A stretch of DNA of 64,000 nucleotides from Polyangia bacterium (GTDB lineage Bacteria; Myxococcota_A; Polyangia; Fen-1088). Below are positions 6,757 through 53,440 of this stretch, piece by piece. Every line of letters begins with the position of its first letter. Position 1 is the stretch's first letter. The position numbers and the translations under genes were made by a program. The stretch covers positions 1 to 64,000 of the forward strand of contig DATATI010000041.1 of NCBI GenBank assembly GCA_036268875.1. Reading direction: 5' to 3'. Below the pieces are notes generated by a model. It had not been told where the DNA came from. It did no database searches and worked only from the letters and a program-made list of their open reading frames with translations.

Positions 6757-8475
6757 ATGAACACAACGGTTGTGCTGTATGGAGCGGGAGCGGGCGCGGC
6801 GGCTATGTTGGCGCGGCGGTTGTTCGTTCGCTTGCAGCTGTCCAAGGCCAAGCATCCGTCGCTGCGCGGCCACTCGCGCATGGCCCGGATGGCGGCGCGG
6901 CTGGTGCGCTTTTACGACTACAGCGACCAGCAGTTTTTCCGCACCGACGGCGCTCCACCGGAGATCGCCGCGCGACGCCGGGATGGTTTCATGCGCCTCG
7001 GCGAGCTTTACCGCCAGCGTTTCGCTCAGTCGGTCCGCGCCACCGGCGAGGTGGAGGGCGATCTTTCCGACGTGGCCTTCACCGGCCAGTACCGGGTGCC
7101 GTTTCAATTTCGGCGCCTGGTGCGCAAGCATCTCAAGACCGGATCCTTCCTGCAGGCGTCGGCAGGCGTGACCGTCACCGATCTGGACGGCAATCAATTC
7201 TTCGATCTGACCGGCTCTTACGGCGTCAATGTCTTTGGCTATGACTTTTACAAGCAATGCATCGACAACGGCGCGGCGTTGGTGCGCGGGTTGGGTCCGG
7301 TGCTGGGCGCCTATCACCCGCTGGTGGCGGAGAACGCCAAGCGACTGAAAGAGATCTCCGGTCTGGACGAGGTGTCGTTTCACATGTCGGGCACCGAGGC
7401 GGTGATGCAGGCGGTGCGGCTGGCTCGCTATCACACCCGGCGCTCGCACCTGGTGCGTTTTTGCGGCTCCTACCACGGCTGGTGGGGCGACGTGCAGCCG
7501 GGCGTGGGCAACCCGCAGCCGGCGCACGAGACGTACACGCTCAAAGACATGGATGACGATGCTCTGCGCGTGTTGCGCAAACGCAAGGACATCGCCTGCG
7601 TGCTGGTGAATCCGCTGCAGGCCATGCACCCGAACGGCAACGCGCCCACCGATTCGACGTTGCTGGCCAGCGATCGAAGCGCCGGCTTCGACCGGGCCGC
7701 CTATACCGACTGGCTGAAGCGCCTGCGCGCGGTGTGCACCGAACGCAACATCGTCCTCATCTTCGACGAGGTGTTCGTGGGCTTTCGCCTGGCCGCCGGC
7801 GGGGCGCAGGAGTACTTCGGCGTGCGCGCCGACCTGGTCACCTACGGCAAGACGCTGGCGGGCGGCTTGCCCATCGGCGTGGTGTGCGGGCGGCGCGATT
7901 TGATGAAGCGCTTTGACGAAAAGCGCCCGGCGGACATCTGCTTTGCCCGCGGGACGTTCAACTCGCATCCCTACGTGATGGGCGCCATGCACGAATTTCT
8001 GCGCCGCTTGCAGACGCCGGAGATCGCGGCCACCTACCAGAATCTGGACCAGGTCTGGAATGCCCGCGCCCGCTCGCTCAATCAACGGCTGGCGGACCAG
8101 CAGCTCCCGGTTCGCGTCGAAAACCTGAGCACGATCTGGACCGTCCTTTATACCCGTCCATCGCGTTACAACTGGATGCTGCAATATTATCTGCGCGCCG
8201 AAGGGCTGGCCTTGAGCTGGGTGGGGACCGGGCGGTTGATCTTCAGCCTCAATTATTCGGACGCCGCGTTCAATCAAGTGGTCGAGCGCTTTGTGGCTGC
8301 TGCCCAGGCGATGGAGCGAGACGGGTTCTGGTACGCGGACCCGGCGCTGACCAACAAAGCGATCAAGCGCCGCGTGCTCCGAGAGATGCTGACGGCTAGG
8401 CGTGCTGCGCCTTCCCCGACTCCTCAATCAGCTCGCCCCGCAGAAGATGCAGCGGCGACCGGTAGTACAGCATGA
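6757..8475 (+). CDS. Class III PLP-dependent aminotransferase (glutamate-1-semialdehyde aminomutase-like)
   Basis: 572 residues from the ATG at 6757, preceded by AGGGGAG; an upstream start at 6718 has no such site. The core has 'GVTVTDLDGNQFFDLTGSY', 'GLDEVSFHMSGTEAVMQAVR', 'FCGSYHGWWGD' (PLP phosphate and ring contacts), 'IVLIFDEVFVGFRL' (D-E-V for the pyridine nitrogen) and 'TYGKTLAGGLPIG', where Lys365 forms the Schiff base. It is much longer than hemL: about 130 residues precede the core, beginning with a hydrophobic helix that could anchor it in the membrane, so it is not the haem enzyme. Its neighbours (psd, Mpo1-like protein, GT4) point to an amino-lipid or long-chain aldehyde substrate, which is inference. 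The last 80 bp overlap the convergent membrane-protein gene. Confidence 0.85.
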   Translation: MNTTVVLYGAGAGAAAMLARRLFVRLQLSKAKHPSLRGHSRMARMAARLVRFYDYSDQQFFRTDGAPPEIAARRRDGFMRLGELYRQRFAQSVRATGEVEGDLSDVAFTGQYRVPFQFRRLVRKHLKTGSFLQASAGVTVTDLDGNQFFDLTGSYGVNVFGYDFYKQCIDNGAALVRGLGPVLGAYHPLVAENAKRLKEISGLDEVSFHMSGTEAVMQAVRLARYHTRRSHLVRFCGSYHGWWGDVQPGVGNPQPAHETYTLKDMDDDALRVLRKRKDIACVLVNPLQAMHPNGNAPTDSTLLASDRSAGFDRAAYTDWLKRLRAVCTERNIVLIFDEVFVGFRLAAGGAQEYFGVRADLVTYGKTLAGGLPIGVVCGRRDLMKRFDEKRPADICFARGTFNSHPYVMGAMHEFLRRLQTPEIAATYQNLDQVWNARARSLNQRLADQQLPVRVENLSTIWTVLYTRPSRYNWMLQYYLRAEGLALSWVGTGRLIFSLNYSDAAFNQVVERFVAAAQAMERDGFWYADPALTNKAIKRRVLREMLTARRAAPSPTPQSARPAEDAAATGSTA

Positions 8476-9004
8476 TGTCGTGAACCGGATCGGTGAGGAT
8501 CTTGGTGAACCACACCAGGCCGGTCATCACATCACGCAGGAAGAACAGGTGGATGGTGCGGAACAACAGCGCCCCGCCCGCCAGGCCAATCCAGACCTTG
8601 GACAGGTTGGTCAGGTAGCTGGAGAGATCGGTGTACGCCGGCAGCATGCCGAAGAACGAAGGTGAGAAATACAGCACCACCGGCGCCAGTCCCCAGATGC
8701 TGTGCAGGATGATCTTGCGGCGCAGGTTGAAGCCGACTTTGACCTTCTCTTTGTATTCGTGGGTCGCCTGGTTCATCTCGTCATAGCCCTTGGGCTCGAA
8801 GAAGAAATGGCCCACCTGGCGAATGCACATCGCGAAGGTCCAGCCGAACAGCGCCGCCGCCACCGGCTTGGTGAACAGCAGCACATAAGTCACCAGAAAG
8901 CTGATCGCGCTGATGAGGTGCAGCGACTGGTTGACGCGGCTGTGGTGGTAAAAGCGGTGATCGTCCCATCGTTGCTCCGCGAGCATGTCCAAGAATTTCT
9001 TCAT
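8396..9004 (-). CDS. Mpo1/DUF962-like membrane protein
   Basis: 202 residues from the ATG at 9004, which has an excellent AAAGGAGGAGAG site. Four or more hydrophobic segments are visible. Near the N-terminus is 'YHHSRVNQSLHLISA', which contains H-x3-N-x3-H, and at about residue 70 'RQVGHFFFEPKGYDE', which contains G-H-x2-F-E; both are hallmarks of the Mpo1/YGL010w (DUF962) family. Yeast Mpo1 is an iron-dependent dioxygenase that shortens 2-hydroxy fatty acids in sphingoid-base breakdown. The match here is by motif only and the rest of the sequence is divergent, so the activity is a hypothesis. It converges on the class III aminotransferase with an 80-bp overlap and carries a NemR-like palindrome upstream. 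Confidence 0.6.
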   Translation of the reverse strand: MKKFLDMLAEQRWDDHRFYHHSRVNQSLHLISAISFLVTYVLLFTKPVAAALFGWTFAMCIRQVGHFFFEPKGYDEMNQATHEYKEKVKVGFNLRRKIILHSIWGLAPVVLYFSPSFFGMLPAYTDLSSYLTNLSKVWIGLAGGALLFRTIHLFFLRDVMTGLVWFTKILTDPVHDIMLYYRSPLHLLRGELIEESGKAQHA

Positions 9005-9030
9005 CTCTCCTCCTTTGTTACAAATGATCC

Positions 9031-9046
9031 TAGACCGATTGGTCGA
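9031..9046. promoter_or_regulatory. Candidate TetR-family (NemR-like) operator
   Basis: TAGACCGATTGGTCGA has the TAGACC-N4-GGTCTA form described for NemR and related TetR repressors, with one mismatched pair. It sits 27 bp upstream of the ATG of the Mpo1-like gene, overlapping where its promoter or leader must be. No TetR-type gene is in the window. The symmetry is seen; the regulator is inferred. Confidence 0.45.
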
Positions 9047-9203
9047 CGGTGACGCCCACAAGCCCATGACAGTTGTGTGAAAGTTCGGCGACGGAGGTTT
9101 GTTGTCCCGAACGCTTACGCTTTTCTTGCTAGAAGGCGGCCGACGGCCAAACATGATCGGCAGCAGCGTCTAACATCCTTGGCAGTGGGGGGAATTGACA
9201 GAG

Positions 9204-10079
9204 ATGACAGACGGCACGTCGACGGCAGTCATGGTGTGGTGGACGGTCCTTCGCGCCGTCAGCGTATTGAACGGGGCGGTCTGGGTATTGATGGGAGTGA
9301 CCTGGTGGAAATCAAAGACCGAGCGCGATTCACGCCGGCGCACCCATGAAGAACTGCAACTGGGGCTGTCGGCGCTGTTTGTGCTGGGCTGCGGGTTTCG
9401 TTCGTTCTTTCCCTGGGCGGAAGCACCGCGGTTCTGCTTGTCGGCATCTGGGATCTCCAGCGCCGCCATTGCCCGCACGGTGGCCACCGTCGCCGAGCTG
9501 GCTCTGGTGACCCAGTGGGCGCTGACCATGCGCGAGATGTCGCTGGTTCGGAAGGTGCCGCTGGCCTTCGCGGCGTCTTGTTTGGTGGTGCCGCTGATCG
9601 CGGTGGCCGAGGTGGCGTCCTGGTACAGCGCCCTCACCACCAACTTCATCGGCAGCGTGGTGGAAGAGTCACTTTGGGCAATAACGTCGGGCCTGGCCAC
9701 AGTCGGGCTGGGAGCGCTCTTGCCCCGTTACGACGGCTATCGGCGGCGGTTCATCGCCTTCGCGATGATGTTGAACGTGGCCTACATCGGTTTCATGTGC
9801 ACCGTCGACGTCCCGATGTACTTCGGCCGCTGGCGCGCTGATCAGACGGCTGGCCGTCAATACCTGACCATCGGCCAGGGTTGGGCCGACGCCCAGGACC
9901 GACGGGTGTTGACCCGACGCTGGGAAGACTGGCGCGAAGAGATGCCGTGGATGTCGCTTTATTTCAGCGCCGGCGTCTGGATCAGCATCGGCCTGGCCCA
10001 GGCGGCCACCAAACGCTCGCGGCGCGACGCGCGCGAGATGGCCGAGCCGTTGCGCCAGCTGGGCGGCACGGCTATTTGA
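9204..10079 (+). CDS. Polytopic membrane protein of unknown function
   Basis: 291 residues from the ATG at 9204, preceded by GTGGGGGGA; a TTG at 9195 is possible. About six hydrophobic segments can be drawn ('TVLRAVSVLNGAVWVLMGV', 'LGLSALFVLGCGFRSFFPW', 'LVTQWALTMREMS', 'FAASCLVVPLIAVAEVA', 'SGLATVGLGALLP', 'MMLNVAYIGFMCTVDV'), with a charged loop 'DAQDRRVLTRRWEDWREE' before the last one. I do not recognise the family. It is convergent with the CPBP protease gene (8-bp overlap). Nothing suggests a catalytic role: there are no conserved His/Asp/Glu clusters. Confidence 0.7.
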   Translation: MTDGTSTAVMVWWTVLRAVSVLNGAVWVLMGVTWWKSKTERDSRRRTHEELQLGLSALFVLGCGFRSFFPWAEAPRFCLSASGISSAAIARTVATVAELALVTQWALTMREMSLVRKVPLAFAASCLVVPLIAVAEVASWYSALTTNFIGSVVEESLWAITSGLATVGLGALLPRYDGYRRRFIAFAMMLNVAYIGFMCTVDVPMYFGRWRADQTAGRQYLTIGQGWADAQDRRVLTRRWEDWREEMPWMSLYFSAGVWISIGLAQAATKRSRRDAREMAEPLRQLGGTAI

Positions 10080-10773
10080 ACAGGCGCGACATCAGCCGCA
10101 CCCCGTTGACGAACATGCCGGCAATTCCCACGCTGAAGATAAAGTCGCCGTAAAGTCCGTGCTCCAGCGCCACCAGCGCCGTCGAACGCGAGCGCTGATA
10201 GGTCCAGGCGAACAGCCAGCCACCAACGCTGGCCAGCAGGATGGCCACCCGGTGATGAACGATGATGTGCGACCAGCCGAACAAAAGACCGTTGACCGCG
10301 ATCAGGGTCTCCGGCCGGGCAAACAACCTGCCATAGCGGTGAAAGAAGAACGTCCGGTACATCAATTCTTGCGGATAAACAGAGAAGAGTGGGTACAGCA
10401 CAACGACGCCTAACCAGACGAGCGGCCGTTGGCGCGGCAGGTAAAACAGTCCGCTGCCGCCGCGCGACCACCAAGCCACGATCAACAAACCGCCCCCCAC
10501 GAAACCCGCGCGCAATAATAGACCACGCCAGCCGCCTTGCAGGCCGTCGCTGTTCCACAGTTGCCGGCGATCAAACGACGGATCGGCCAGCAGCAACGCC
10601 AAGCAGACGGCGCCACCGGTCATGATCACCACCAGTAGAATCCAGCGCGGGCCCAGGGAAATCAGCCCCGGCAACAGCCCGAACAGCACCGCCAGCTCCA
10701 GCCAGCGACGACGGCGAGTGGCAACAGAAAACGGGGCGGACAGCGGGGTCGGCAGGGGAGTCATTGGCGGCAA
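10072..10773 (-). CDS. CPBP-family intramembrane metalloprotease (Abi/CAAX-like)
   Basis: 233 residues and five to seven hydrophobic segments. The three CPBP motifs are visible in order: 'VYPQELMYRTFFFHRYG' near residue 150 (family form E-E-x3-R, here Q-E-x2-Y-R), 'LFGWSHIIVHH' (F-x3-H) and 'ALEHGLYGDF' (H-x3-N/D). Members include Rce1-like CAAX proteases and bacteriocin self-immunity proteins; zinc-dependent peptide cleavage in the membrane is the family activity. The change of the first motif Glu to Gln is unusual and could weaken activity. It diverges from the metallophosphoesterase gene across a 171-bp gap holding a promoter and an inverted repeat. Confidence 0.75.
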   Translation of the reverse strand: MPPMTPLPTPLSAPFSVATRRRRWLELAVLFGLLPGLISLGPRWILLVVIMTGGAVCLALLLADPSFDRRQLWNSDGLQGGWRGLLLRAGFVGGGLLIVAWWSRGGSGLFYLPRQRPLVWLGVVVLYPLFSVYPQELMYRTFFFHRYGRLFARPETLIAVNGLLFGWSHIIVHHRVAILLASVGGWLFAWTYQRSRSTALVALEHGLYGDFIFSVGIAGMFVNGVRLMSRLFK

Positions 10774-10836
10774 AGACGACTTTACGAGCGATTAACGGCA
10801 CCTTGTCGCTGCGAAATCGCAACAATCGCGGGTAGA

Positions 10837-10855
10837 AAACATTTCAACAATGTTT
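10837..10855. repeat. Inverted repeat in the divergent intergenic region
   Basis: Seven-base arms AAACATT and AATGTTT flank TCAAC, a perfect AT-rich dyad in otherwise GC-rich DNA. It lies between the divergent CPBP and metallophosphoesterase genes, 28 bp ahead of a good -35 box, and so could be an operator acting on either gene. No downstream T-run makes it look like a terminator. Confidence 0.4.
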
Positions 10856-10882
10856 CAGTGCCGGCACTGGGTCGCCCCGGCG

Positions 10883-10910
10883 TTGTCACGCAGCTCTTTT
10901 AACGTATAAG
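10883..10910 (+). promoter_or_regulatory. Sigma-70 promoter for the metallophosphoesterase gene
   Basis: TTGTCA at 10883-10888 and TATAAG at 10905-10910 are separated by 16 bp. Both hexamers are close to consensus and stand out in high-GC DNA. A start of transcription near 10917 would leave a leader of about 28 nt before the ATG at 10945. Confidence 0.55.
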
Positions 10911-10944
10911 TCATGAATAACAGGCAAACGAGGCGTCGTCGCTG

Positions 10945-11769
10945 ATGCGTTCGCAGACGCTGGCGCACATTTCGGATCTCCACGTGGGACGGAGCCCGGA
11001 CTGCGACGAGCGGGCTGCTCAACTGTGTCGCACGCTGGTCGAAGCGGACATTGACCACGTCGTGGTGACAGGCGATGTCACCCACCGCGGCCGCGCCCGC
11101 GAGCTGGCGCAGTTCAAGCAGGCCTTCGCGCCGCTGCTGGACGCCGGTCGCGTGACCGTGGTGCCGGGCAATCACGATCGCCTGGGAGACGATCTTCGTG
11201 AAACGATCATGCCGGGATCGCGCGTGCAGACTGAAACGAGATCGGGTTTGTATCTGGTGCGGTTGGATTCGACCGGTCCGCACAATCGATCGTGGATCAA
11301 CGGCCACGGCATGCTGGAGGAGGCGGACATCGACGCCGTTGATCAAGCGCTGTGGCGCGCGCCGCCGCATCACCTGGTGGTGCTGCTGCTGCACCATCAT
11401 TTGCTGCCGCTGCCCGACGAACACGCGATGGAGCGGTTGTCGGCGTGGATGGGCTTGCGCTTTACCTGCGAGCTGGCGCGCGGGCGGGCTTTGCTGGGCC
11501 GTATTCGTGGGCGTTGCGACCTGGTGCTGCACGGCCACCGCCATCAACCGCGCGTGCAACGGCCGTTCGCCGACGCGCGCCCGCTGCGCATCTTCAACGC
11601 CGGCAGCTCGACCGAGCTCGGCCGGGCCTGCGTCTTCAGCCATGCGGCCGGCGCACTGACCACCGGCCCTTGGTGGTTGGACGCGGTCGCCGGCCCGCCC
11701 GATCGCGAGCTATGGCAAGGCGGCGGCGCCCGCCAGGCTGGCGCGGCCCGCACGCTGCTGGCGATGTGA
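10945..11769 (+). CDS. Calcineurin-like metallophosphoesterase
   Basis: 274 residues with the full set of metal-binding blocks of the superfamily: 'LAHISDLHVGRSPD' (D-x-H), 'DHVVVTGDVTHRG' (G-D), 'VVPGNHDRLGDD' (G-N-H-D), 'LLLHHHLLPLPDEH' (His) and 'VLHGHRHQPRVQR' (G-H-x-H). A dinuclear metal phosphoesterase is therefore expected. The block spacing resembles the CpdA/Icc group (cyclic nucleotide phosphodiesterases), but the substrate cannot be told. No signal peptide, so cytoplasmic. It has its own promoter and no operon partner. Confidence 0.88.
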   Translation: MRSQTLAHISDLHVGRSPDCDERAAQLCRTLVEADIDHVVVTGDVTHRGRARELAQFKQAFAPLLDAGRVTVVPGNHDRLGDDLRETIMPGSRVQTETRSGLYLVRLDSTGPHNRSWINGHGMLEEADIDAVDQALWRAPPHHLVVLLLHHHLLPLPDEHAMERLSAWMGLRFTCELARGRALLGRIRGRCDLVLHGHRHQPRVQRPFADARPLRIFNAGSSTELGRACVFSHAAGALTTGPWWLDAVAGPPDRELWQGGGARQAGAARTLLAM

Positions 11770-11980
11770 TCGCGGCGCGGCGCAGGCGATAGGCCAGCGG
11801 GCCGACCTCGCGCGCTTGACCGCAGGGCGCAGGTGGGGATGACGTGTCGCTGGGACCGCCGGCTTCACCGGGCAATCACGGGGCGGCGGGTTTCTTCGTG
11901 TCGGGCGGGGGGCCTGGTGGCTGCGGCGGCGGCGCCGTCTTATCTTCCTTAAGCACAGAAACCAACAGGGAGGAATGACC

Positions 11981-12457
11981 ATGGCGACCACAGTGAAGGC
12001 GATCCCGGACGGCTATCATTCGGTGACGCCCTATCTCAGCATCAAAGGCGCGCGCGAGGCGCTGGCGTTTTACAAGAAAGCCTTCGGCGCCGAGGAAATC
12101 TACAAGCTGGACATGCCTGACGGCCGCATCGGGCACGCCGAGATCCAGATCGGCAATTCGCGCGTGATGTTATCCGACGAAATGCCCGAAATGCCGGACG
12201 CCATCACCCGCAGCCCGAAGACGTTGAACGGATCGACGACCGGATTCAACATTTACCTGGAGAACGTCGACGCTCGTTTCCAGCAAGCCGTCGCCGCCGG
12301 CGCCACCGTCAAGCGACCGGTCACCACGCAGTTCTACGGTGATCGCAGCGGCACGTTGGAAGATCCGTTCGGCCACTGCTGGACCCTTTCGACCCACGTC
12401 GAGGACGTGGCGCCCGACGAGATGAAGGCCCGCATGGTCAAGCTATTCGGCGGGTAG
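11981..12457 (+). CDS. VOC-superfamily protein, PhnB-like
   Basis: 158 residues from the ATG at 11981, about seven bases after GGGAGGAA; an ATG two codons earlier is also possible. It opens with 'VTPYLSIKGAREALAFYKKA' and continues 'FGAEEIYKLDMPDGRIGHAE', 'FNIYLENVDARFQQAVAAGA' and 'YGDRSGTLEDPFGHCWTLST', the two beta-alpha-beta-beta-beta modules of the VOC fold in the PhnB/YdcA-like 'glyoxalase/bleomycin resistance' group. The His in 'GHAE' and the Glu in 'LEDPFG' could bind metal. The family has many small-molecule roles, so the function is open. A hairpin directly follows the stop codon. Confidence 0.85.
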   Translation: MATTVKAIPDGYHSVTPYLSIKGAREALAFYKKAFGAEEIYKLDMPDGRIGHAEIQIGNSRVMLSDEMPEMPDAITRSPKTLNGSTTGFNIYLENVDARFQQAVAAGATVKRPVTTQFYGDRSGTLEDPFGHCWTLSTHVEDVAPDEMKARMVKLFGG

Positions 12458-12495: not shown

Positions 12496-12748
12496 GTCTG
12501 TTGTCGCTGGGTGAGCTGGCGCTGGCCGGTCGTGGTCGTCTTAAGACTTTGACGGCGGCGAGATCCGCCGTCGGCTCAAAACTGACCGAGCCGACGCTGA
12601 AGCCCGGGTAAATCGCCGCCGACAGGGACCGGCCACTACTTGAAAGATCTTTTGCGCCCGAGGCAGGGCCGGTCTGACGCGAAGGCCAAAGGATTGGTGG
12701 CGACCGTGGTTTTTGGGCCGGCATCGTGCGACAAATCGGCCCCTCACC

Positions 12749-13660
12749 ATGATGCGCAAATTGTCCGTGGTTTCCTTCTCGTTTGCCGCGGTGGTCGGCT
12801 GCTCCAGCGGAGGCGGATCGTCCCCGCCCAGCAACAAGCCGGACACCGGCACGACGATGGACGGGGCGTCAGTGGCAGACGCCCCGCGCGTCGACGCGGC
12901 CGCGCCGGACACCGGGCCGGTCGCCGAGGTGGGGCCCGTCGATCGAGGGGGCGGCACCGGCGACAGCACCGACAGCGGCGCCCTCGACGCCACCGCGCCC
13001 GTCGACGTCCCCGCCGAGACTGCGCCCGACACCGGCGGACTGCCCGCGGGCCTCAAGGCCATCATGATCACCGACGGCGCCGCCACGCCTACCGCGGGCG
13101 ACACCGTGATGCGCGATCGCCTGAAGGCGCTTGGCTTCGTCATCACGCTGGTCAGGGACGCCGACGTGACCACGCCACAAGCGATGGCGATGGATCTGGT
13201 GGTCATCTCCAGCAGCGCCGAGTCGGCGCCGCTCGGGACCAAGGTCACCAACGTCACCATCCCCGTGCTGAGCATCGAAAACGGCGAGTACCCGATGCTG
13301 AAAATGAGCGGCGCCGCCCGCGGCACCGACTGGGACATGACCGCCAACCAGACGTCGGTGATCATCAAGATGCCCACCCACGAACTGGCCGCCGGGTTGA
13401 CCGGCACGGTGAAGGTGTCCAGCAAGACCGGCGACATGGGGTGGGGCGTCCCCAGCGCCAGCGCCATCGTGGTCGCCACGATGACCGACAATCCGGCGCA
13501 CATCATGATCTTCGGCTACGAAAAAGGCGCCCAGATGGTGGGCATGACCGCGCCCGCGCGCCGGGCGGGTTACGCCATCCGCGAAGATCTCGCCGCCAAT
13601 CTCACCGCCGAGGGCGGCAAGCTGTTCGACGCGGCGGTGACCTGGGTGATGGGTAAATAG
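12749..13660 (+). CDS. Lipoprotein with Asp/Pro-rich linker and a repeat-type C-terminal domain
   Basis: 303 residues from the ATG at 12749 (the next codon is also ATG). A signal peptide ends in the lipobox 'AAVVGC', so the protein should be lipid-anchored. A low-complexity linker rich in Asp, Ala, Pro and Thr runs to about residue 105. The globular part starts 'LKAIMITDGAATPTAGDTVM' and continues 'DRLKALGFVITLVRD', 'AMDLVVISSSAESAPLG', 'NVTIPVLSIENGEYPML' and ends 'GGKLFDAAVTWVMGK'. This Rossmann-like order (strand, helix, 'VVISS') is seen in extracellular proteins of Planctomycetes and Myxococcota with no firm function. It is a singleton; no operon partner. Confidence 0.8.
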   Translation: MMRKLSVVSFSFAAVVGCSSGGGSSPPSNKPDTGTTMDGASVADAPRVDAAAPDTGPVAEVGPVDRGGGTGDSTDSGALDATAPVDVPAETAPDTGGLPAGLKAIMITDGAATPTAGDTVMRDRLKALGFVITLVRDADVTTPQAMAMDLVVISSSAESAPLGTKVTNVTIPVLSIENGEYPMLKMSGAARGTDWDMTANQTSVIIKMPTHELAAGLTGTVKVSSKTGDMGWGVPSASAIVVATMTDNPAHIMIFGYEKGAQMVGMTAPARRAGYAIREDLAANLTAEGGKLFDAAVTWVMGK

Positions 13661-13737: not shown

Positions 13738-14721
13738 TTAGTCGGTCTGGACTTGTCGCCCGACCCGGATCTCCGTCGTTGCGGCGCGGGTTGGTTCTCG
13801 GCCCGCTGTCCAGTCGGTGATCCGGCGGTCGAGAACCTGCATGATCGCCGCGGCCCCTTGCACCGACAGGTGGACGCCGTCGCGGTAGTTGATCCGGTCG
13901 TGGCGAAAGGCGCCCAGGTCGGGCGCGTTCAGATCAATGATCAGATCGCCCGGCGACGAGAACAGGGCCAGCAGGCGCTGGTTGTAGCGATCCATGCGGG
14001 CGCGGCGCGGGGCCAATAGCTCGTCGATGGTCGGGGGGATCACCGCGACCAGGCGCAGGCCGTGGGCGCGCAGCTCGCCGACCATCGTGCGGTATTCGTC
14101 GAACGCCATTTGGTCGACATGGACCTCACCTTCGGATTTCATGATCCGGGTCAGGACCGGGTTCAGCGGGCGCATCTCTTTGATCACCTCGGAGAACTCG
14201 GTGCCCAGCGGATCCCAGACCAGCGGCGCACGCCCGCGTTCGACGGCGCGTTTTTGCCAATACGATCGGCCGAGCGAGATCGAGCCGAGGGCGCTGACGA
14301 TCTCGCTTTCGCGCATCTCGTCGGCGTTCACCCCATGAGCGTCGGTCAGATAAGGGTGAATCAAACAGATCGCCACCTTCAGGCCCGGCGTGGCCAGCGC
14401 GCGCTCGGCCAGCAGGCGTTCCTCGGTGATGTTGCCGCCGTCGGTGGATTCGTTGTACGTGCGCAGGCCGCGAATGGCGGCGGTGTTCCAGTTGCTGGTC
14501 ACCGACGAGCCCAGCAGGATCGCGTCGAAGTTCCGGGGCACGTAGTTGACGCTGAGCAGGTATTTCCCCCGCCGTTCGCTGTCATAGATGCCCAGCGTGC
14601 GTCCGTGGGTGTCGCGAAACAGTCCGTAAAGATCGACCCACACGTTCAGGCAGACCACGGCGCCGCCCACCAGCAGCGTGGCGGCGAGGGTGGCGACGAT
14701 GAAGCGGCGGGGGGGCATCAC
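13738..14721 (-). CDS. Membrane-anchored SGNH/GDSL-like protein, MBOAT partner
   Basis: 327 residues. An N-terminal hydrophobic helix (residues 8-28) anchors the protein, which should lie outside the inner membrane. Block I is 'AILLGSSVTSNW' with Ser72/Ser73 in the G-S-S turn typical of the AlgJ/AlgX/DltD-like group, and the last block is 'YRDGVHLSVQGA' with Asp281 and His284. It follows the MBOAT gene by nine bases in the same operon. In alginate O-acetylation and D-alanylation systems such proteins pass the acyl group from the MBOAT channel to a polymer outside the cell, and the same role is likely here. The acceptor polymer is not encoded nearby. Confidence 0.72.
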   Translation of the reverse strand: MMPPRRFIVATLAATLLVGGAVVCLNVWVDLYGLFRDTHGRTLGIYDSERRGKYLLSVNYVPRNFDAILLGSSVTSNWNTAAIRGLRTYNESTDGGNITEERLLAERALATPGLKVAICLIHPYLTDAHGVNADEMRESEIVSALGSISLGRSYWQKRAVERGRAPLVWDPLGTEFSEVIKEMRPLNPVLTRIMKSEGEVHVDQMAFDEYRTMVGELRAHGLRLVAVIPPTIDELLAPRRARMDRYNQRLLALFSSPGDLIIDLNAPDLGAFRHDRINYRDGVHLSVQGAAAIMQVLDRRITDWTAGREPTRAATTEIRVGRQVQTD

Positions 14722-14730
14722 AGGTCGTGT

Positions 14731-16167
14731 TCAAAAAGCAAAGTAGACAAACTGCTTGGCGATGTTCGAGTTCAGGTAGAGAAACGAGGCCAATAGCAGG
14801 GCTGCCGCCGATGCTGAGGCCAGCGTCGAACGCTTGAGCGCGCCTGCCAGTTCGTCCGACGTCTTGCCGGCGAAGGCGGCGTAAAGGCCGAAGGCCAGCA
14901 GCGGCAGCAGCGTCGTCACGCCGACCTTGCGCACCTCGCGCAATAGCTCGACGCCCAGCCCGCCGGGGCGCGGGAGCAACTGCGCGGCGAAGTGCGCGGC
15001 GGTGGTCAGATCCGGTGAACGGAAAAAGATGAAGGTCAGGTTCACGAAGGCGAACGTCACCGCCGTGGCGATCAGCGGCGGCAGCTTGGGCAGCCGCTTG
15101 CTCTTGGCCTTCTTGCGCACTTGATTCACCACCAGGGCGATGCCGTGCAAGAGCCCGAAGACCACGAACGTCCACGACGGCCCATGCCAGAGACCCGCGA
15201 TGGTCATCGACAGCAGCGTGGCCACCGCTGCGGTGACCAGGGTGGCGCGGCTGAACGCGCGCAGGATCGGCGTGTAGAGATAGGTGGTGATGAACGCCGA
15301 CAGCGACATGTGCCAGCGCTGCCAGAACTCGATCACCGTGCGGGCGCGAAACGGCGCGTTGAAGTTGCGCGGCAGGCGAATGCCCAGCATGGCCGCCGAG
15401 CCCAGCGCCATGTCGGTGTACCCGCTGAAGTCGAAGTAGATCTGCATGGTGTAGGCGACGCTGAAGACCCACGCCTCCACCGTCGACCAGTCGGTGGCGC
15501 CGGCGGCAAAGCCGACGTCGGCGACGCGGGCGAATGAATCGGCCAGCAGGACCTTCTTGCCGATGCCCGTGGCGAACAGGAACAAACCTTGCGCGCCCAG
15601 CTCCCAGCGTTCGTCGCTGGTCAGCTTGGGCGCGGTCAGCTGCGGGACCATCGCCTTGGCGCGCGCCAGCGGACCCGAGGTCACGTTGGGAAAGAAAGCC
15701 ACGAAGGTGGCGTGGTCGAGGAGACCGCTCGGCGAGATCAGGCCTTCGTAGCAGTCGACCAGGTACATGATCTGCTGCAGGGTGAAAAAGCTGATGCCCA
15801 GCGGAAACGCCCAGTCGGGCAGGGCGACGCGCGGCAGGCCCAGCAGCATCAGATTCGACAGGAAGAAGTTGACGTACTTGAACAGACACAGAAACCCGAT
15901 GTTCAGCAGCAAGCCCAGCTGCAGCCAGCGGCGGCGTGTGCTCTCGCGCGTCTCGGCGGCCATCCGCCGGGCCAAAAACCAGTTGACCACGATCGATCCG
16001 CCCAGCAGCCACAGGTTCGACGGTTTCGGCCAGGCGTAGGCGACCAGCGAACCCAGCAGCAACGCCCCTTGCCCGGCGCGCGCCCCCCCGATCTTGCGCG
16101 CCAGCGCGAAAATCAAGGCGACGGCGGGAAAAAAGCAAAAGACGTAAGTGAACGAATTGAACGCCAT
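14731..16167 (-). CDS. MBOAT-family membrane O-acyltransferase
   Basis: 478 residues and about ten membrane segments. The AlgI/DltB-type signatures are present: 'LPDWAFPLGISFFTLQQIMY', 'VTSGPLARAKAMVPQL', 'MQIYFDFSGYTDMALGSA' and 'FWQRWHMSLSAFITTYLY', then 'IAGLWHGPSWTFVVFG', where the His in WHG is the catalytic residue of the family. It moves an acyl group from a cytoplasmic carrier through the membrane to an acceptor outside. Its start overlaps the stop of the SDR gene by one base. The upstream acyl carrier protein and FkbH are the obvious source of its donor, in contrast to alginate systems where acetyl-CoA or an unknown donor is used. Confidence 0.9.
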   Translation of the reverse strand: MAFNSFTYVFCFFPAVALIFALARKIGGARAGQGALLLGSLVAYAWPKPSNLWLLGGSIVVNWFLARRMAAETRESTRRRWLQLGLLLNIGFLCLFKYVNFFLSNLMLLGLPRVALPDWAFPLGISFFTLQQIMYLVDCYEGLISPSGLLDHATFVAFFPNVTSGPLARAKAMVPQLTAPKLTSDERWELGAQGLFLFATGIGKKVLLADSFARVADVGFAAGATDWSTVEAWVFSVAYTMQIYFDFSGYTDMALGSAAMLGIRLPRNFNAPFRARTVIEFWQRWHMSLSAFITTYLYTPILRAFSRATLVTAAVATLLSMTIAGLWHGPSWTFVVFGLLHGIALVVNQVRKKAKSKRLPKLPPLIATAVTFAFVNLTFIFFRSPDLTTAAHFAAQLLPRPGGLGVELLREVRKVGVTTLLPLLAFGLYAAFAGKTSDELAGALKRSTLASASAAALLLASFLYLNSNIAKQFVYFAF

Positions 16168-16916
16168 CAGAAGGCCGCCCCCGCTGTGATGGGCAATTCG
16201 GCGCCGTTGATGTAGCCGGCCTCGGCCGACAGCAGGAAGGCGATGGCGCCCACCACCTCGTCCGGCGTGGCGTGGCGGCCGGCCGGGCTTTGCGCCGCCG
16301 CCAGGTCGCGCGCCACCTCCGGAATGTCGTCGAGAAAACGCGTGCCCACCATGCTGGGCGAGACGGCGTTGATGGTCAGCCCGGTGCCGGCGTATTCGCT
16401 GGCCAGCGCCTTCATCAGGCCCAGCTGGGCGTGCTTGACCACGGTGTACATGGACAGAAACCGCGGTGGCACCCCGCGCGTCACGCTGGACAACACGAAG
16501 ACCACCCGGGCCGCCGGCCGCTTGGCCATCTGGGGAGCGAACCGCTGCAGCAAGGTGACGGCGACGCGCACCTGGATGGTGAGATCCGCTTCAAAGCGCG
16601 CCCAGTCGAACTTTGTAAATCGTTCGTAAACCAACTTCAGGGCCGGCAGGTGCACGAACTGCGTCGGGGTCTCGTGCTGGGCGGCGATGCGATCGCCGAG
16701 GGCCGCCGCGGCCGCCGGATCGCCGAAGTCGGCGGCGCAAAGCTGGATGCGTTCGGCCCCGAATTCGCGCTGCAAGGCCTGCAACCGCTCGCCGCCGCCG
16801 CCAGCGCGATGATGGGCCAGCACCAGCGGGGCTTCGGGCCGCGACAGCAGCCGGCGGATGAGGGCCAGGCCCAGATCCGACGAGGCGCCGGTCAGCAGCA
16901 AAGCCTCACGCGCCAT
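16167..16916 (-). CDS. SDR-family oxidoreductase
   Basis: 249 residues. The nucleotide-binding loop is 'LTGASSDLGLALIRRLL' (T-G-x3-x-x-G), then 'LCAADFGDPAAAAALGD', 'VVFVLSSVTRGVPPRF' with the catalytic Ser, and 'YTVVKHAQLGLMKAL' with the Y-x3-K pair. The C-terminus 'GYINGAELPITAGAAF' matches the FabG group. Inside the FkbH operon it most likely reduces a keto group on an ACP-bound chain or small acyl unit using NAD(P)H. It overlaps the MaoC gene by 11 bases and the MBOAT gene by one. Confidence 0.85.
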   Translation of the reverse strand: MAREALLLTGASSDLGLALIRRLLSRPEAPLVLAHHRAGGGGERLQALQREFGAERIQLCAADFGDPAAAAALGDRIAAQHETPTQFVHLPALKLVYERFTKFDWARFEADLTIQVRVAVTLLQRFAPQMAKRPAARVVFVLSSVTRGVPPRFLSMYTVVKHAQLGLMKALASEYAGTGLTINAVSPSMVGTRFLDDIPEVARDLAAAQSPAGRHATPDEVVGAIAFLLSAEAGYINGAELPITAGAAF

Positions 16917-17325
16917 GCAGCCCGACCCGGATCTTGGCCTTGGAGATGGCCTTGCCGTTCTGGTTGACGATGCGCGCCTTCAGCTCGACGCGACGATAGG
17001 CCTCGGTCAGAAACGTCACCTCGCCCGACACGGTCAGGCGGTCGCCGACGAAGACCGGCGCCACGAAGTCGACGTCAAGCCCGTGCAGCAGGGCGAATTT
17101 CCCCGGCAGGTGCATGCCCACCAGCTGCGAGTAGAACGACGACGTCAAAAGCCCGAACACCACCGGCCCGCGAAACCCCGCCGCGCCGGCGTACGCCGCG
17201 TCGACGTGCAGCGGGTTGCGATCGCCCGACAGCGCGGCGAAGACGTTCATCATCTGATCGTCGATCGCGGCGCTGAATTCGTGGCGTAGGCCGACCCGCA
17301 GGTCGTCCCAGCGGTACTGGTTCAT
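16906..17325 (-). CDS. MaoC-like hydratase/dehydratase
   Basis: 139 residues, starting at the ATG whose first four bases (ATGA) overlap the stop of the acyl-carrier gene. It has the hot-dog fold signature 'FAALSGDRNPLHVDAAYA' (D-x4-H motif, with Asp and His as catalytic pair), then 'GFRGPVVFGLLTSSFYSQLV' and 'FVAPVFVGDRLTVSGEVT'. Such enzymes add or remove water across a double bond of an acyl-CoA or acyl-ACP. With the SDR and ACP it would complete a reduction cycle on an acyl chain. A larger frame extending upstream to 17463 is not used because the start would overlap the whole ACP gene. Confidence 0.87.
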   Translation of the reverse strand: MNQYRWDDLRVGLRHEFSAAIDDQMMNVFAALSGDRNPLHVDAAYAGAAGFRGPVVFGLLTSSFYSQLVGMHLPGKFALLHGLDVDFVAPVFVGDRLTVSGEVTFLTEAYRRVELKARIVNQNGKAISKAKIRVGLHGA

Positions 17326-17564
17326 CGGGCGGCGGTCTTGGTGGCGATGAGATCGATCATCTCGCCGACGTCCTTCAGCTCGCTGAGCTCGCCGAGGGCG
17401 AAGCGGATCTTGTAGTGCTTCTGCACGGCGGTGACCAGGTTGACGTGGGCCAGCGAATCCCAACCCTCGACGGTGTTGGCGTTGGATTGCCGGGTCAGGT
17501 TCAGATCCGGCAGGTCCAGGATGTCGCGAAAGATCGGGGTCAGCTCGACTAGATAGTCAGTCAT
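17322..17564 (-). CDS. Acyl carrier protein
   Basis: 80 residues with the phosphopantetheine site 'GWDSLAHVNLVTAVQ', where Ser37 would be modified. The rest follows the four-helix carrier pattern ('FRDILDLPDLNLT', 'YKIRFALGELSELKDVGEMI'). It overlaps FkbH by eight bases and MaoC by four, which implies translational coupling, so it should be the dedicated carrier of this operon. It lacks the strongly acidic helix II of the fatty-acid ACP, in line with a specialised partner. Confidence 0.93.
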   Translation of the reverse strand: MTDYLVELTPIFRDILDLPDLNLTRQSNANTVEGWDSLAHVNLVTAVQKHYKIRFALGELSELKDVGEMIDLIATKTAAR

Positions 17565-19341
17565 CGAAGGTCTCCTTGACCGAGATGTGGCGATTCCGTT
17601 TTTCGTAAGCGGCGATGTTCAAGCTCCAGGCGCGCGGTCCATCGTCGCTGTCGGGCAGCGGTGTGAAGCGCAGCCGATCGTAGTGATCGGCCACCATGGC
17701 GTTCTTCTCCGTCGGGATGTATGTGCCGCGCAGGGTGGTGGCGCCGGCGGTGCGCGCGCGTTCGACCAGCGCGTCCAGCATAGCCAGCTCCATCTCGCGC
17801 TTGAGCACGCGGCAGCTCATCAGCCACAGATCGATGTGCACCACGCTGTCCGCCAGCCGCCCGACCACCACCGACACCAGGCCGTTGTCGCCGAAGCTGT
17901 CGGTCAGCTTGCCGTAAAGCGGGATGTACGCCTGGTCAACCGCGCGGTCTTCGATCTCCGCCAGGGTGAAGCGACGGGTGGTGAGGTTGAACTGGTTCGT
18001 CTTGTTGGTCAGCTGGGCGATGCGATCGAGGTACTGCGAACGAAAGCGGGCGATCTCCGCACGCATCTGCAGCGAAGCGAGGTATTCACCATAGTCGGCG
18101 AACTGCGCCGTCTGCGCCGCCCGCTGGCTGTTGGCGGCGTACTGTTCGGCGCGCTGCAGATCATCGCCGGACAACGCCACCGGTTCGAAGTAGCGGCCCA
18201 TTTCCAGCACGGCGGCAAAGCTGGAGACGTCGTTGCCCACGTCGGGCACCGCCACCATCGGCAGCTGCGCCGCCACCAGCGCGCGCTCGGCCGGGTTGTC
18301 GTCGACGAAGACGAAGCTGTCCACGCCCAGGTTCAGCTCGTTGGCCATGGAAAGAATGTTGTCGGGCTTGGGCGACCAGTTGGCCCGAAACGCCGCGAAG
18401 TGTTCGGGACGGAGCACCGAGTCCGGATGGGCGAGGCCCTGGCGGGCGTTGGCCTCCTCGTTCTTCGAGCACACCGCCAGCAAGACGCCGCGGCTGCGCA
18501 GGGCCAGGCAGTACTCTTGAAACGCCGTGTACGCCTCGGCCTCGGCGGTCTCGCGGCCGATCTTGATGTGGTCGACGCCGTCGTCGCCGATGACCCCGCC
18601 CCACAGCGTGTTGTCGAGATCCAGGACCAGGCACTTGCGGCTTTTGCCGTAGATCGATCGCACCATCGACGCCAGCGAGCGCGCCACGGCCAGGCTGGCC
18701 TCGACCGTGGTGACGATCTTGTAGGCGTGAAAGCGATGGGCGTCGTGAAAGTTCGCCAGGCCCACCTGCGCGGCGATGCCGTTCAGATCCTGAATCAGGA
18801 GCTTGCCGTTGCCGGCCGCCGCGCGGGCGAAGGCCAGATTCACCAAGTTCACGAAGTGCGAGCGCCCGCCCGGGCTGACCGCATCCAGGTTCCCCAGCAA
18901 GCGCGCCGCCGGCGCTTCAAAGTTGTTCTGGATGATCTGGCAGCCCAGCTTTTCTTGCAGCGCGCGCCAGATACCGGCGAAGCGGGCGGCCTCGGCCTCT
19001 GCCGCCGCCTGGGCCTCGGCCGCGGTGGCCGACAGGATCGGGAAGCCCTGCAGGTTTTTTCCGGTGGTGTGGACGTAGACGATCTCCGGGGCGAAGGCGA
19101 TCAACGCCTCGGGCGCCAGGACCGCCTCTTCGTAATAGCGGTTGTAGTCGGACTGGTAGATGGTGGCGCGAAACCCGTCCGCCAGCAGAAGCAGCTCGAG
19201 AAAATCCGCCACCTCGTTGGTGGTTGACCCGCCCAGGACGGCGATGCGAACGTCCTTGAGGCCGCCGGTCTGAAGAAGTTCGCGGCGCAGGCCCTTTCTT
19301 TTCTGCAGCAAGTGTTCGGCCGTGCTTGATTCGAGGTGCAT
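17557..19341 (-). CDS. FkbH-like HAD-IIIC protein (glyceryl-ACP type)
   Basis: 594 residues. An N-terminal half of about 230 residues, which includes an SGNH-like segment ('RIAVLGGSTTNEVADFLELL'), is followed by a HAD phosphatase domain beginning 'CLVLDLDNTLWGGVIGDDG' with Asp241 and Asp243, and by 'LAVCSKNEEANARQGLA' and 'FVFVDDNPAERALVAAQLP'. A GNAT-like C-terminal part includes 'NQFNLTTRRFTLAEIED'. This is the FkbH architecture: such enzymes take 1,3-bisphosphoglycerate, remove a phosphate and load glyceryl onto a carrier protein. It is the first gene of the six-gene operon, next to its carrier. The glyceryl product is family knowledge, not proven here. The alternative is a different small hydroxyacid starter. 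Confidence 0.88.
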   Translation of the reverse strand: MHLESSTAEHLLQKRKGLRRELLQTGGLKDVRIAVLGGSTTNEVADFLELLLLADGFRATIYQSDYNRYYEEAVLAPEALIAFAPEIVYVHTTGKNLQGFPILSATAAEAQAAAEAEAARFAGIWRALQEKLGCQIIQNNFEAPAARLLGNLDAVSPGGRSHFVNLVNLAFARAAAGNGKLLIQDLNGIAAQVGLANFHDAHRFHAYKIVTTVEASLAVARSLASMVRSIYGKSRKCLVLDLDNTLWGGVIGDDGVDHIKIGRETAEAEAYTAFQEYCLALRSRGVLLAVCSKNEEANARQGLAHPDSVLRPEHFAAFRANWSPKPDNILSMANELNLGVDSFVFVDDNPAERALVAAQLPMVAVPDVGNDVSSFAAVLEMGRYFEPVALSGDDLQRAEQYAANSQRAAQTAQFADYGEYLASLQMRAEIARFRSQYLDRIAQLTNKTNQFNLTTRRFTLAEIEDRAVDQAYIPLYGKLTDSFGDNGLVSVVVGRLADSVVHIDLWLMSCRVLKREMELAMLDALVERARTAGATTLRGTYIPTEKNAMVADHYDRLRFTPLPDSDDGPRAWSLNIAAYEKRNRHISVKETFDD

Positions 19342-35186: not shown

Positions 35187-36734
35187 TTAAGGGCTGCACG
35201 CGCCCGTGGTCCCGGTGGGGATCCACCAGTTGCCGGACACGGCCAGCATCGACAGCAGCGTGATGCTGCCGCCGTAATAGTCGCCGCCGTTGGTGCCTTT
35301 CATGTACGTCCAGCCGCGATCCAGCCAGGTCTGGTGGGAGGCGTCGGTGACCCCGGCGGCGACCATCGGCGAGGTGAACGAGGGGTCACTGCCCCCGGCG
35401 TTGCTGTCGTCGCCGGTGGTGGGAAACGACGCCTTCATCGCCGACGGGGTGTCGTTGTATTTGGTGCGCGCCCAGGTGGCCATCTTGTTGTCGACGTCCA
35501 GCGAGCCGGCATACCCGAACTGCACAACTGCCACCGCTTGCCGCCACGGCACACGGCACGAGTTGTAGCCGAAGCAGTCATAGCAAGGCCCTTCGTCGCC
35601 GGTGCCGGTCTTCGATCCCACCGGCGGGTTGTCGACCACGAAATCGGGGACCAGGCCGGTGTCGGCATTGCGCACCTGCTTGAGAATGGCCACCGAGCCA
35701 GCGGCGACGTCCGACCAGGCGGCGTGGCCGGTGATGGCCGCGAAGGCCAGCATGTGATCGACCATGTAATCGGAAGGTCGGGTGAGGTCCGGCTTTGATT
35801 CAGGCGCCACCGAACCGAGGTGAGTGGGATCGCCGATGTTGAGGCGGGGGAAGAATTGCCCACTGCCGGTGGTGATGAACTTGTCTTCCATGCCCGCGAT
35901 GACCGACTTGGCGTCGACGAGGTAGTGATTGGTCGCCTCGTCACCCCACTGGTCGTAAGCGATCAGAAGCGAGTAGCCCATGTCCATGTCGCCGTCGGTG
36001 GCGGGCGGCTGCGCTTTGATCGTCGGATCGCCGTTGCCCGGCACCACCCACGACATGAGGCGCGGATCCGAGCTGGACGGAAACGCTTTTCGCACCCGGT
36101 TCAAGCTGTCGAAGACAGTCTTGGCATTGGGATCGTGGCCCGCCATCAACGCGGTTATCAGCATGGCGTAGCCGTGGCCTTCAGACTGCGAGACCTGTTT
36201 GACGTTCGCCGGCCAGCCGAAGATGTTCCCGGCGGCGCCGGCGGCGATGTAGTTTTCGCCGTTGACCGCGCCGGCGGTGAATTTTTTGATCAGGGTCTTC
36301 CAGACGTCGTAGTAGTGGCCGACGTCGGCGTCCATCGTTGCCTGGGCCACCGTCGGGTGAATGCAGGTTGCGCAGCCGGGGTAGCCGCTGTGCTGCGGGA
36401 ACGGGCGGCGCGGCTGTCCAGCAGCGGCGGTGGCCGTGCACGCGGTGGGCGCATCGTTCGGGCCTACCACCTTGTCGACGGACGCGTCGGTCGTCGCCGG
36501 GTGATCGACGGCGGCGTCGGTCTCGGCCACTCCACCGCCCGCCCCGCCGCTGGCCGTGACAGCGCCGCCCGAACCATCACCGCTGGTGCCGCCGCTGGCA
36601 CCGCCCGAGGCGCCGCCGTTCGTGGCGCCGCTGCCGCCCGCCGGCGTGCCGGCCGACGATCCGCAACCGGCCAGGCTCAGCGACACGCCGAACAGAATCG
36701 ATGCGATCGACGAAAAAATAGGCGAGCGCGACAT
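35187..36734 (-). CDS. Lipoprotein glycoside hydrolase, family 8
   Basis: 515 residues. The lipobox 'LSLAGC' (Cys24) is followed by a Gly/Ser/Thr linker to about residue 100, then the GH8 (alpha/alpha)6 domain. The general acid Glu185 lies in 'QVSQSEGHGYAMLITAL', and the catalytic base region is 'ATDGDMDMGYSLLIAYDQWG' with Asp247, Asp249 and Asp251. GH8 enzymes cleave beta-1,4 glucan, chitosan or xylan; the substrate is not read from sequence. Later blocks 'YNSCRVPWRQAVAVVQFG' and 'GGDYYGGSITLLSML' are also family-like. Placed on the cell surface it would degrade plant or microbial polysaccharide. Confidence 0.88.
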   Translation of the reverse strand: MSRSPIFSSIASILFGVSLSLAGCGSSAGTPAGGSGATNGGASGGASGGTSGDGSGGAVTASGGAGGGVAETDAAVDHPATTDASVDKVVGPNDAPTACTATAAAGQPRRPFPQHSGYPGCATCIHPTVAQATMDADVGHYYDVWKTLIKKFTAGAVNGENYIAAGAAGNIFGWPANVKQVSQSEGHGYAMLITALMAGHDPNAKTVFDSLNRVRKAFPSSSDPRLMSWVVPGNGDPTIKAQPPATDGDMDMGYSLLIAYDQWGDEATNHYLVDAKSVIAGMEDKFITTGSGQFFPRLNIGDPTHLGSVAPESKPDLTRPSDYMVDHMLAFAAITGHAAWSDVAAGSVAILKQVRNADTGLVPDFVVDNPPVGSKTGTGDEGPCYDCFGYNSCRVPWRQAVAVVQFGYAGSLDVDNKMATWARTKYNDTPSAMKASFPTTGDDSNAGGSDPSFTSPMVAAGVTDASHQTWLDRGWTYMKGTNGGDYYGGSITLLSMLAVSGNWWIPTGTTGACSP

Positions 36735-53317: not shown

Positions 53318-53440
53318 GACGCTCTCCTGATTCGGTGACGATGAAATCCGGCCCGGCGGGGCGAGCCGAAGCTCGACGCGGAAGCCGCGCACGGACGAAA
53401 CGATTGCTTGCTTGATGGCTTGGAAACGAACCCGGACCGA

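Follow-up and report, generated by a model that had tools for sequence, protein, structure and literature searches.

A six-gene FkbH-MBOAT operon of a Polyangia bacterium as a candidate carrier-protein-fed O-acylation system

Genes and conserved residues of the operon

The 64,000-nucleotide stretch of a Polyangia bacterium genome analyzed here (contig DATATI010000041.1; "the window", to which all coordinates refer) carries on its minus strand, from 19341 to 13738, six closely packed genes encoding an FkbH-type protein, an acyl carrier protein (ACP), a MaoC-like dehydratase, a short-chain dehydrogenase/reductase (SDR), an MBOAT O-acyltransferase and a predicted membrane-anchored SGNH protein (Table 1). 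In this order the junctions are overlaps of 8, 4, 11 and 1 bases, followed by a gap of 9 bases. An earlier reading, made from the sequence alone (the sequence-only reading), had proposed this layout with the same overlaps and gap, and it is borne out by the gene calls and family searches. The longest open reading frame (ORF) for MaoC begins further upstream; the ATG at 17325 was chosen, which gives the overlap of four bases with the ACP gene. The frames are backed by coding composition (GC content at third codon positions, GC3), the ACP frame having no separate score.

Table 1. Genes of the operon and the nearest plus-strand lipoprotein-like ORF in the window
Feature	Position	Strand	Remarks
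FkbH-type HAD-IIIC glyceryl transferase/phosphatase (predicted acyl-unit loader)	17557..19341	-	594 aa, ATG; TIGR01686, FkbH_N
Acyl carrier protein	17322..17564	-	80 aa; PP-binding domain; phosphopantetheine Ser37 in GWDSLAH
MaoC/(R)-hydratase-like hotdog dehydratase	16906..17325	-	139 aa; MaoC_dehydratas; Asp35/His40 dyad
SDR ketoreductase	16167..16916	-	249 aa; adh_short_C2; TGASSDLG, Ser144/Tyr157/Lys161
MBOAT O-acyltransferase	14731..16167	-	478 aa; PF03062; His286 and His328
Membrane-anchored SGNH protein (predicted)	13738..14721	-	327 aa, GTG start; Ser73, Asp281/His284
Lipoprotein-like ORF	12713-13660	+	nearest plus-strand neighbour

With 288 bits against TIGR01686 (curated cut-off 146.65) the first protein is a member of the FkbH family. 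Both of its HAD motifs, DLDNTLWGG and FVDDNPAER, are intact, and Asp241/Asp243, Ser292-Lys293-Asn294, Asp347/Asp348 and an invariant Cys510 are shared by 90% or more of the 54 relatives compared; the HAD aspartates, on which the sequence-only reading had made its proposal depend, are in place. BF1531 (3slr) is its sole relative by sequence in the PDB. In the ACP, Trp35, Asp36, Ser37 and His40 are conserved among 49 ACPs adjoining FkbH. The MaoC protein (73 bits against MaoC_dehydratas) has as its closest PDB entry 1iq6, an (R)-specific enoyl-CoA hydratase (7e-22), and Asp35 and His40 are kept in at least 90% of 19 sequences. The SDR scores 109 bits against adh_short_C2 and resembles FabG-type reductases in a profile search; its Ser-Tyr-Lys residues and SSD motif are conserved across loci. 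The MBOAT protein reaches 74.5 bits against PF03062 and can be aligned with DltB (6bug) across residues 123-365, with both histidines (286 and 328) kept; these are also conserved among relatives. The structure predicted for the last protein was compared by Foldseek/VIA and matches esterases, PatB and DltD (Z score 13, 225 residues), the esterases scoring equally high.

The gene set among other FkbH loci

To place the operon in context, FkbH loci were gathered by FkbH similarity alone, independent of their neighbours, from a genome contig collection, from 300 genomes of the Acidobacteriaceae, the family of locus L008, and from 379 of the window's phylum; this FkbH clade is present in 20 of the Acidobacteriaceae genomes and in 4 of those from the phylum. 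After removal of near-copies 60 loci were left, some of them clipped at contig ends and many from metagenome-assembled genomes (MAGs), which belong to Acidobacteriota, Myxococcota, Clostridia, Planctomycetota, Verrucomicrobiota, Alphaproteobacteria and Helicobacter. The sequence-only reading had taken FkbH together with an MBOAT for an exceptional pairing and had proposed a count of co-occurrence as a check. An MBOAT gene lies no more than 7 kb from FkbH in 38 of the 60 loci, in several phyla, so that the pairing is not exceptional and the FkbH-ACP-MBOAT core is widespread. MaoC is present within the same distance in 19 of the 60, and 16 of these have an SDR next to it or fused to it, fusion into a single protein being common; most loci with the FkbH-ACP-MBOAT core have neither. 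In six genomes with a close relative of the window's MaoC, that gene is found only at the FkbH locus.

All six genes, plus a VOC protein, recur in a MAG labelled Rhodanobacteraceae and grouped under Acidobacteriota (L013). An Acidobacteriaceae locus (L008) has five of the six and an unmatched ORF in the SGNH position, and further Acidobacteriota have partial sets (L009, L018, L091). Another genome of the window's phylum (L096) shows the rearranged order ACP-MaoC-SDR-FkbH-MBOAT-SGNH, and a Subdoligranulum record has FkbH-ACP-MaoC-SDR. MaoC-SDR fusions adjoin or face FkbH-ACP in four Acidobacteriota loci (L010, L014, L017, L092). The structure prediction for the fused protein has a predicted local distance difference test score (pLDDT) of 50 overall with an unreliable N-terminal half, and a possible second hotdog domain gives a weak profile match.

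At some loci the position of MaoC-SDR is taken by other enzymes. A Glyoxalase_4 (VOC) protein, whose closest match is methylmalonyl-CoA epimerase below the cut-off of that family, directly follows the ACP in L016, L020, L027, L086 and L088. On pSymB of Sinorhizobium meliloti (L115, L118) the order is VOC-MBOAT-ORF-ACP-FkbH, with a split FkbH frame in the 1021 record (L118), and the FkbH locus of a Rhodobacteraceae plasmid likewise has a VOC protein. A methyltransferase occupies the slot in L034 and, together with a VOC protein, in Paroceanicella. Both replacements fit chemistry on a carrier-bound glyceryl unit. The acyltransferase varies as well: loci have an MBOAT with SGNH or DHHW/ALGX proteins, an AAC(3) or a WcbI protein, one plasmid locus reading FkbH-ACP-WcbI-[MaoC-SDR], and several relatives adjoin sugar-nucleotide, AAC(3), WcbI or sulfotransferase genes. 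Well-supported branches of the FkbH tree force at least nine changes of the MaoC label and at least six of the VOC label, counts that are little lower than with shuffled labels. The MaoC-SDR pair has therefore joined or left the core many times, as expected if the pair acts on the product of FkbH and ACP.

The genome of the window has a second FkbH locus (L103; G000:C34:108875-127921, positions 7630-11735). Here an AAC(3)-type N-acyltransferase and FkbH form one protein, a MaoC-SDR-ACP fusion comes next, and sugar-nucleotide genes and a Polysacc_synt_2 gene lie nearby; this locus probably N-acylates an amino sugar. A search of 284 genomes of the phylum found nothing closely related to the MaoC-SDR-ACP fusion, and the arrangement is therefore rare.

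A further hint towards function arises from Helicobacter, where 5 of 34 genomes have an FkbH locus (L026, L030, L109, L110, L111). The order in L026, L109 and L110 is FkbH-ACP-MaoC-MaoC-SDR-MBOAT, with two MaoC genes. Poly-G tracts of 9 to 15 lie near the FkbH start and the frame is interrupted in L030, L109, L110 and L111; L026 has no such tract there and an intact FkbH frame. A tract of 8 to 17 sits where the two MaoC genes meet in L026, L109, L110 and L111, and two of the Helicobacter loci have a disrupted MBOAT frame. Phase-variable surface genes commonly carry tracts of this kind. Their presence suggests phase variation and hence a surface structure as the target in Helicobacter, which is a distant relative and has no bearing on the acceptor in the window's organism.

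FkbH (48% identical) and an ACP also lie close to one end of a contig from human faeces (L121; MT835480.1, 5947-7990) that is labelled as phage and unverified.

Known systems, proposed mechanism and rival explanations

The nearest functional parallel is the Dlt system (DltA-DltC-DltB-DltD) for the D-alanylation of teichoic acids, where the acyl group travels on a small carrier to an MBOAT that works together with a membrane-bound SGNH protein. On the cytoplasmic side of the membrane, the carrier DltC passes D-alanine to DltB (PMC11035591). The operon likewise has an ACP with a phosphopantetheine serine beside the MBOAT gene and an MBOAT that matches DltB along its core, and the predicted SGNH fold of its last protein has DltD among its matches, with esterases scoring as high. 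It differs in that FkbH stands in place of the ATP-using ligase DltA (neither the operon nor the tested flanking genes, 34 calls compared with Pfam that are part of the window's ORFs, encode an AMP-binding domain), and in that the acyl unit is proposed to be a hydroxy acid made on the carrier. Against the DltB equivalog model TIGR04091 the MBOAT reaches 194 bits, far under the cut-off of 375. With no DltA-type ligase and so low a score, the operon, while it may work like Dlt, is not a member of it. The AlgI/AlgJ/AlgX and PatA/PatB systems share the MBOAT and SGNH architecture, and PatB is among the fold matches; these systems transfer acetyl and are not known to have an ACP of their own, an FkbH, a MaoC or an SDR.

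The polyketide and peptide synthases of FK520, tetronates and vioprolide share a member of the FkbH family with a dedicated ACP for glyceryl loading. Unlike them, the operon has no ketosynthase, no methoxymalonyl-forming dehydrogenases and no FabH-like tetronate enzyme, and its product would go to an MBOAT. Family searches found no methoxymalonyl-ACP pathway genes in the operon (acyl-CoA-type dehydrogenase, hydroxyacyl dehydrogenase, O-methyltransferase), and the absence of any ketosynthase among the window genes tested covers the tetronate-type condensing enzyme. Among the 34 flanking gene calls there was also no fatty-acid synthase part, nonribosomal peptide synthetase (NRPS), polyketide synthase (PKS) or adenylation enzyme, in agreement with the statement of the sequence-only reading that no ketosynthase is present. 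A parallel in chemistry may be found in bryostatin synthesis, where the module of BryA that loads D-lactyl (FkbH, ACP, ketoreductase, dehydratase) is a proposed maker of lactyl-ACP. All four of these enzyme types are present and linked in the operon, with the difference that lactyl there reportedly primes a polyketide and the output here is an O-acyltransferase.

We consider it reasonably probable that the operon encodes an O-acylation system fed by a carrier protein, in which FkbH, MaoC, SDR, MBOAT and SGNH act in this order to make and transfer lactyl. FkbH enzymes load glyceryl onto carriers (PMC8949500), and a pathway-reconstruction paper models FkbH loading as yielding D-lactate-ACP (PMC7901079). 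Going by what is known of the family, FkbH would take the phosphoglyceryl unit of 1,3-bisphosphoglycerate, strip the phosphate and load D-glyceryl on the holo-ACP. The next two steps are suggested by chemistry and gene order only: MaoC could remove the 3-hydroxyl by beta-dehydration, leaving enolpyruvyl, that is pyruvyl-S-ACP, whose 2-keto group the SDR could reduce to lactyl-S-ACP. Family knowledge again suggests that the DltB-like MBOAT would pick up the acyl group carried by the ACP on the cytoplasmic side, and that the DltD/PatB-like membrane-anchored SGNH protein would finish the acylation of a hydroxyl on a polymer or lipid outside the cytoplasm. The core idea of the sequence-only reading, a dedicated route that starts at a glycolytic intermediate and yields an acyl group for MBOAT and SGNH, is upheld by the intact residues and by the result that no ketosynthase or fatty-acid synthase partner was found; the chemistry and the surface polymer we infer, the stereochemistry and the acceptor from chemistry and gene order only. 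Among the acyl groups it had named, lactyl fits MaoC and SDR best and is probably the group transferred, and 3-hydroxypropionyl is by chemical reasoning unreachable from glyceryl with these enzymes.

Several points weigh against this proposal. We know of no demonstration that a MaoC-fold enzyme dehydrates a 2,3-dihydroxyacyl thioester. Some MaoC-SDR fusions lie on the strand opposite FkbH-ACP, L087 has MaoC without a detected SDR, and L030 of Helicobacter keeps one MaoC and is without MaoC1 and the SDR. No polysaccharide cluster that could provide the acceptor adjoins the operon among the tested flanking genes. The SGNH gene is the weakest of the six by sequence, with 29 bits against Pfam GDSL, below the cut-off, and its model, an N-terminal helix followed by the SGNH fold, has a pLDDT of 68; yet the predicted fold is clearly that of an SGNH protein.

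The alternative that survives best, though we regard it as unlikely, is that the group transferred is glyceryl or another C3 derivative and not lactyl, with the SDR for example oxidizing a glyceryl hydroxyl, or the MaoC/SDR pair inverting the configuration by oxidation and reduction. The many core loci without MaoC and SDR mean that plain glyceryl is likely a valid donor, and the epimerase-like VOC protein in the same slot makes alteration at C2 a recurring theme. Against this stand the intact and conserved Asp/His dyad of MaoC and the fusion order, MaoC then SDR, which suits dehydration and reduction better than epimerization.

It is improbable that MaoC and SDR constitute a short fatty-acid or 3-hydroxyacyl path (e.g. 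to 3-hydroxybutyryl) which shares the ACP, FkbH giving a different unit. The (R)-specific enoyl-CoA hydratases as closest solved relatives of MaoC and the FabG-like character of the SDR would suit such a path; the operon and the tested flanking genes contain no ketosynthase, thiolase or acyl-CoA ligase to feed it, and MaoC-SDR keeps company with FkbH in settings independent of one another, such as the MaoC-SDR-ACP fusion beside an FkbH fusion. We give similarly little credence to a small secreted natural product, esterified with glyceryl or lactyl, in place of surface polymer modification. Cyanobacterial clusters of the aeruginosin type (suomilide, varlaxin; PMC10143770) do combine FkbH and MBOAT, the sole FkbH-MBOAT link found in the open-access literature searched, and no report there joined FkbH with O-antigen or assigned a homologous cluster to a polymer. 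However, no NRPS or PKS gene is among the window genes tested, the MBOAT is paired with a membrane-anchored SGNH protein, and the relatives with sugar-nucleotide, AAC(3), WcbI or sulfotransferase neighbours also speak against it. Chance adjacency of unrelated genes is practically negligible, as within 7 kb of one given FkbH in the 6.15 Mb host genome (2 FkbH, 3 MaoC and 4 MBOAT genes) about 0.007 MaoC and 0.009 MBOAT genes are expected, near 0.01 per gene, compared with a recurrence across phyla in rearranged orders and as fusions; both FkbH genes of this genome adjoin a MaoC-SDR pair, and the grouping is not due to chance.

Beyond the lactyl-forming O-acylation proposed for the operon itself, we tentatively suggest that FkbH-ACP may stand at the centre of a modular system of wide occurrence. 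Interchangeable enzymes would make carrier-bound C3 hydroxyacyls (glyceryl, its epimer, O-methylglyceryl, lactyl), with which interchangeable acyltransferases (MBOAT/SGNH, AAC(3)-like, WcbI) would decorate cell surfaces, in Helicobacter in a phase-variable manner. If the reading of the operon is right, it describes a Dlt-like surface acylation that draws on the acyl-phosphate of 1,3-bisphosphoglycerate and not on ATP, and bacteria would thereby have a means of producing activated lactyl or glyceryl groups and exporting them. It would also explain genetically why bacterial envelopes bear glycerate and lactate esters, and would supply a set of acyl-making enzymes that can be exchanged for one another.

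Other genes in the window

Besides the lipoprotein-like ORF of Table 1, a DUF1501 gene is among the nearest plus-strand neighbours of the operon, and upstream of it lies an ORF of 690 aa without a Pfam match. A glyoxalase gene at 11975-12457 (+) was considered as an additional part of the operon and dropped; it is on the opposite strand and of the PF00903 type, not of the Glyoxalase_4 type of the relatives. Elsewhere in the window we observed a protein of the glycosyl hydrolase family 8 (35187-36734, minus strand), a single protein with methyltransferase and family 2 glycosyltransferase domains (40558-42102, plus strand) and a 911-aa protein with four tandem DsbA/Thioredoxin_4 stretches (50657-53392, minus strand).

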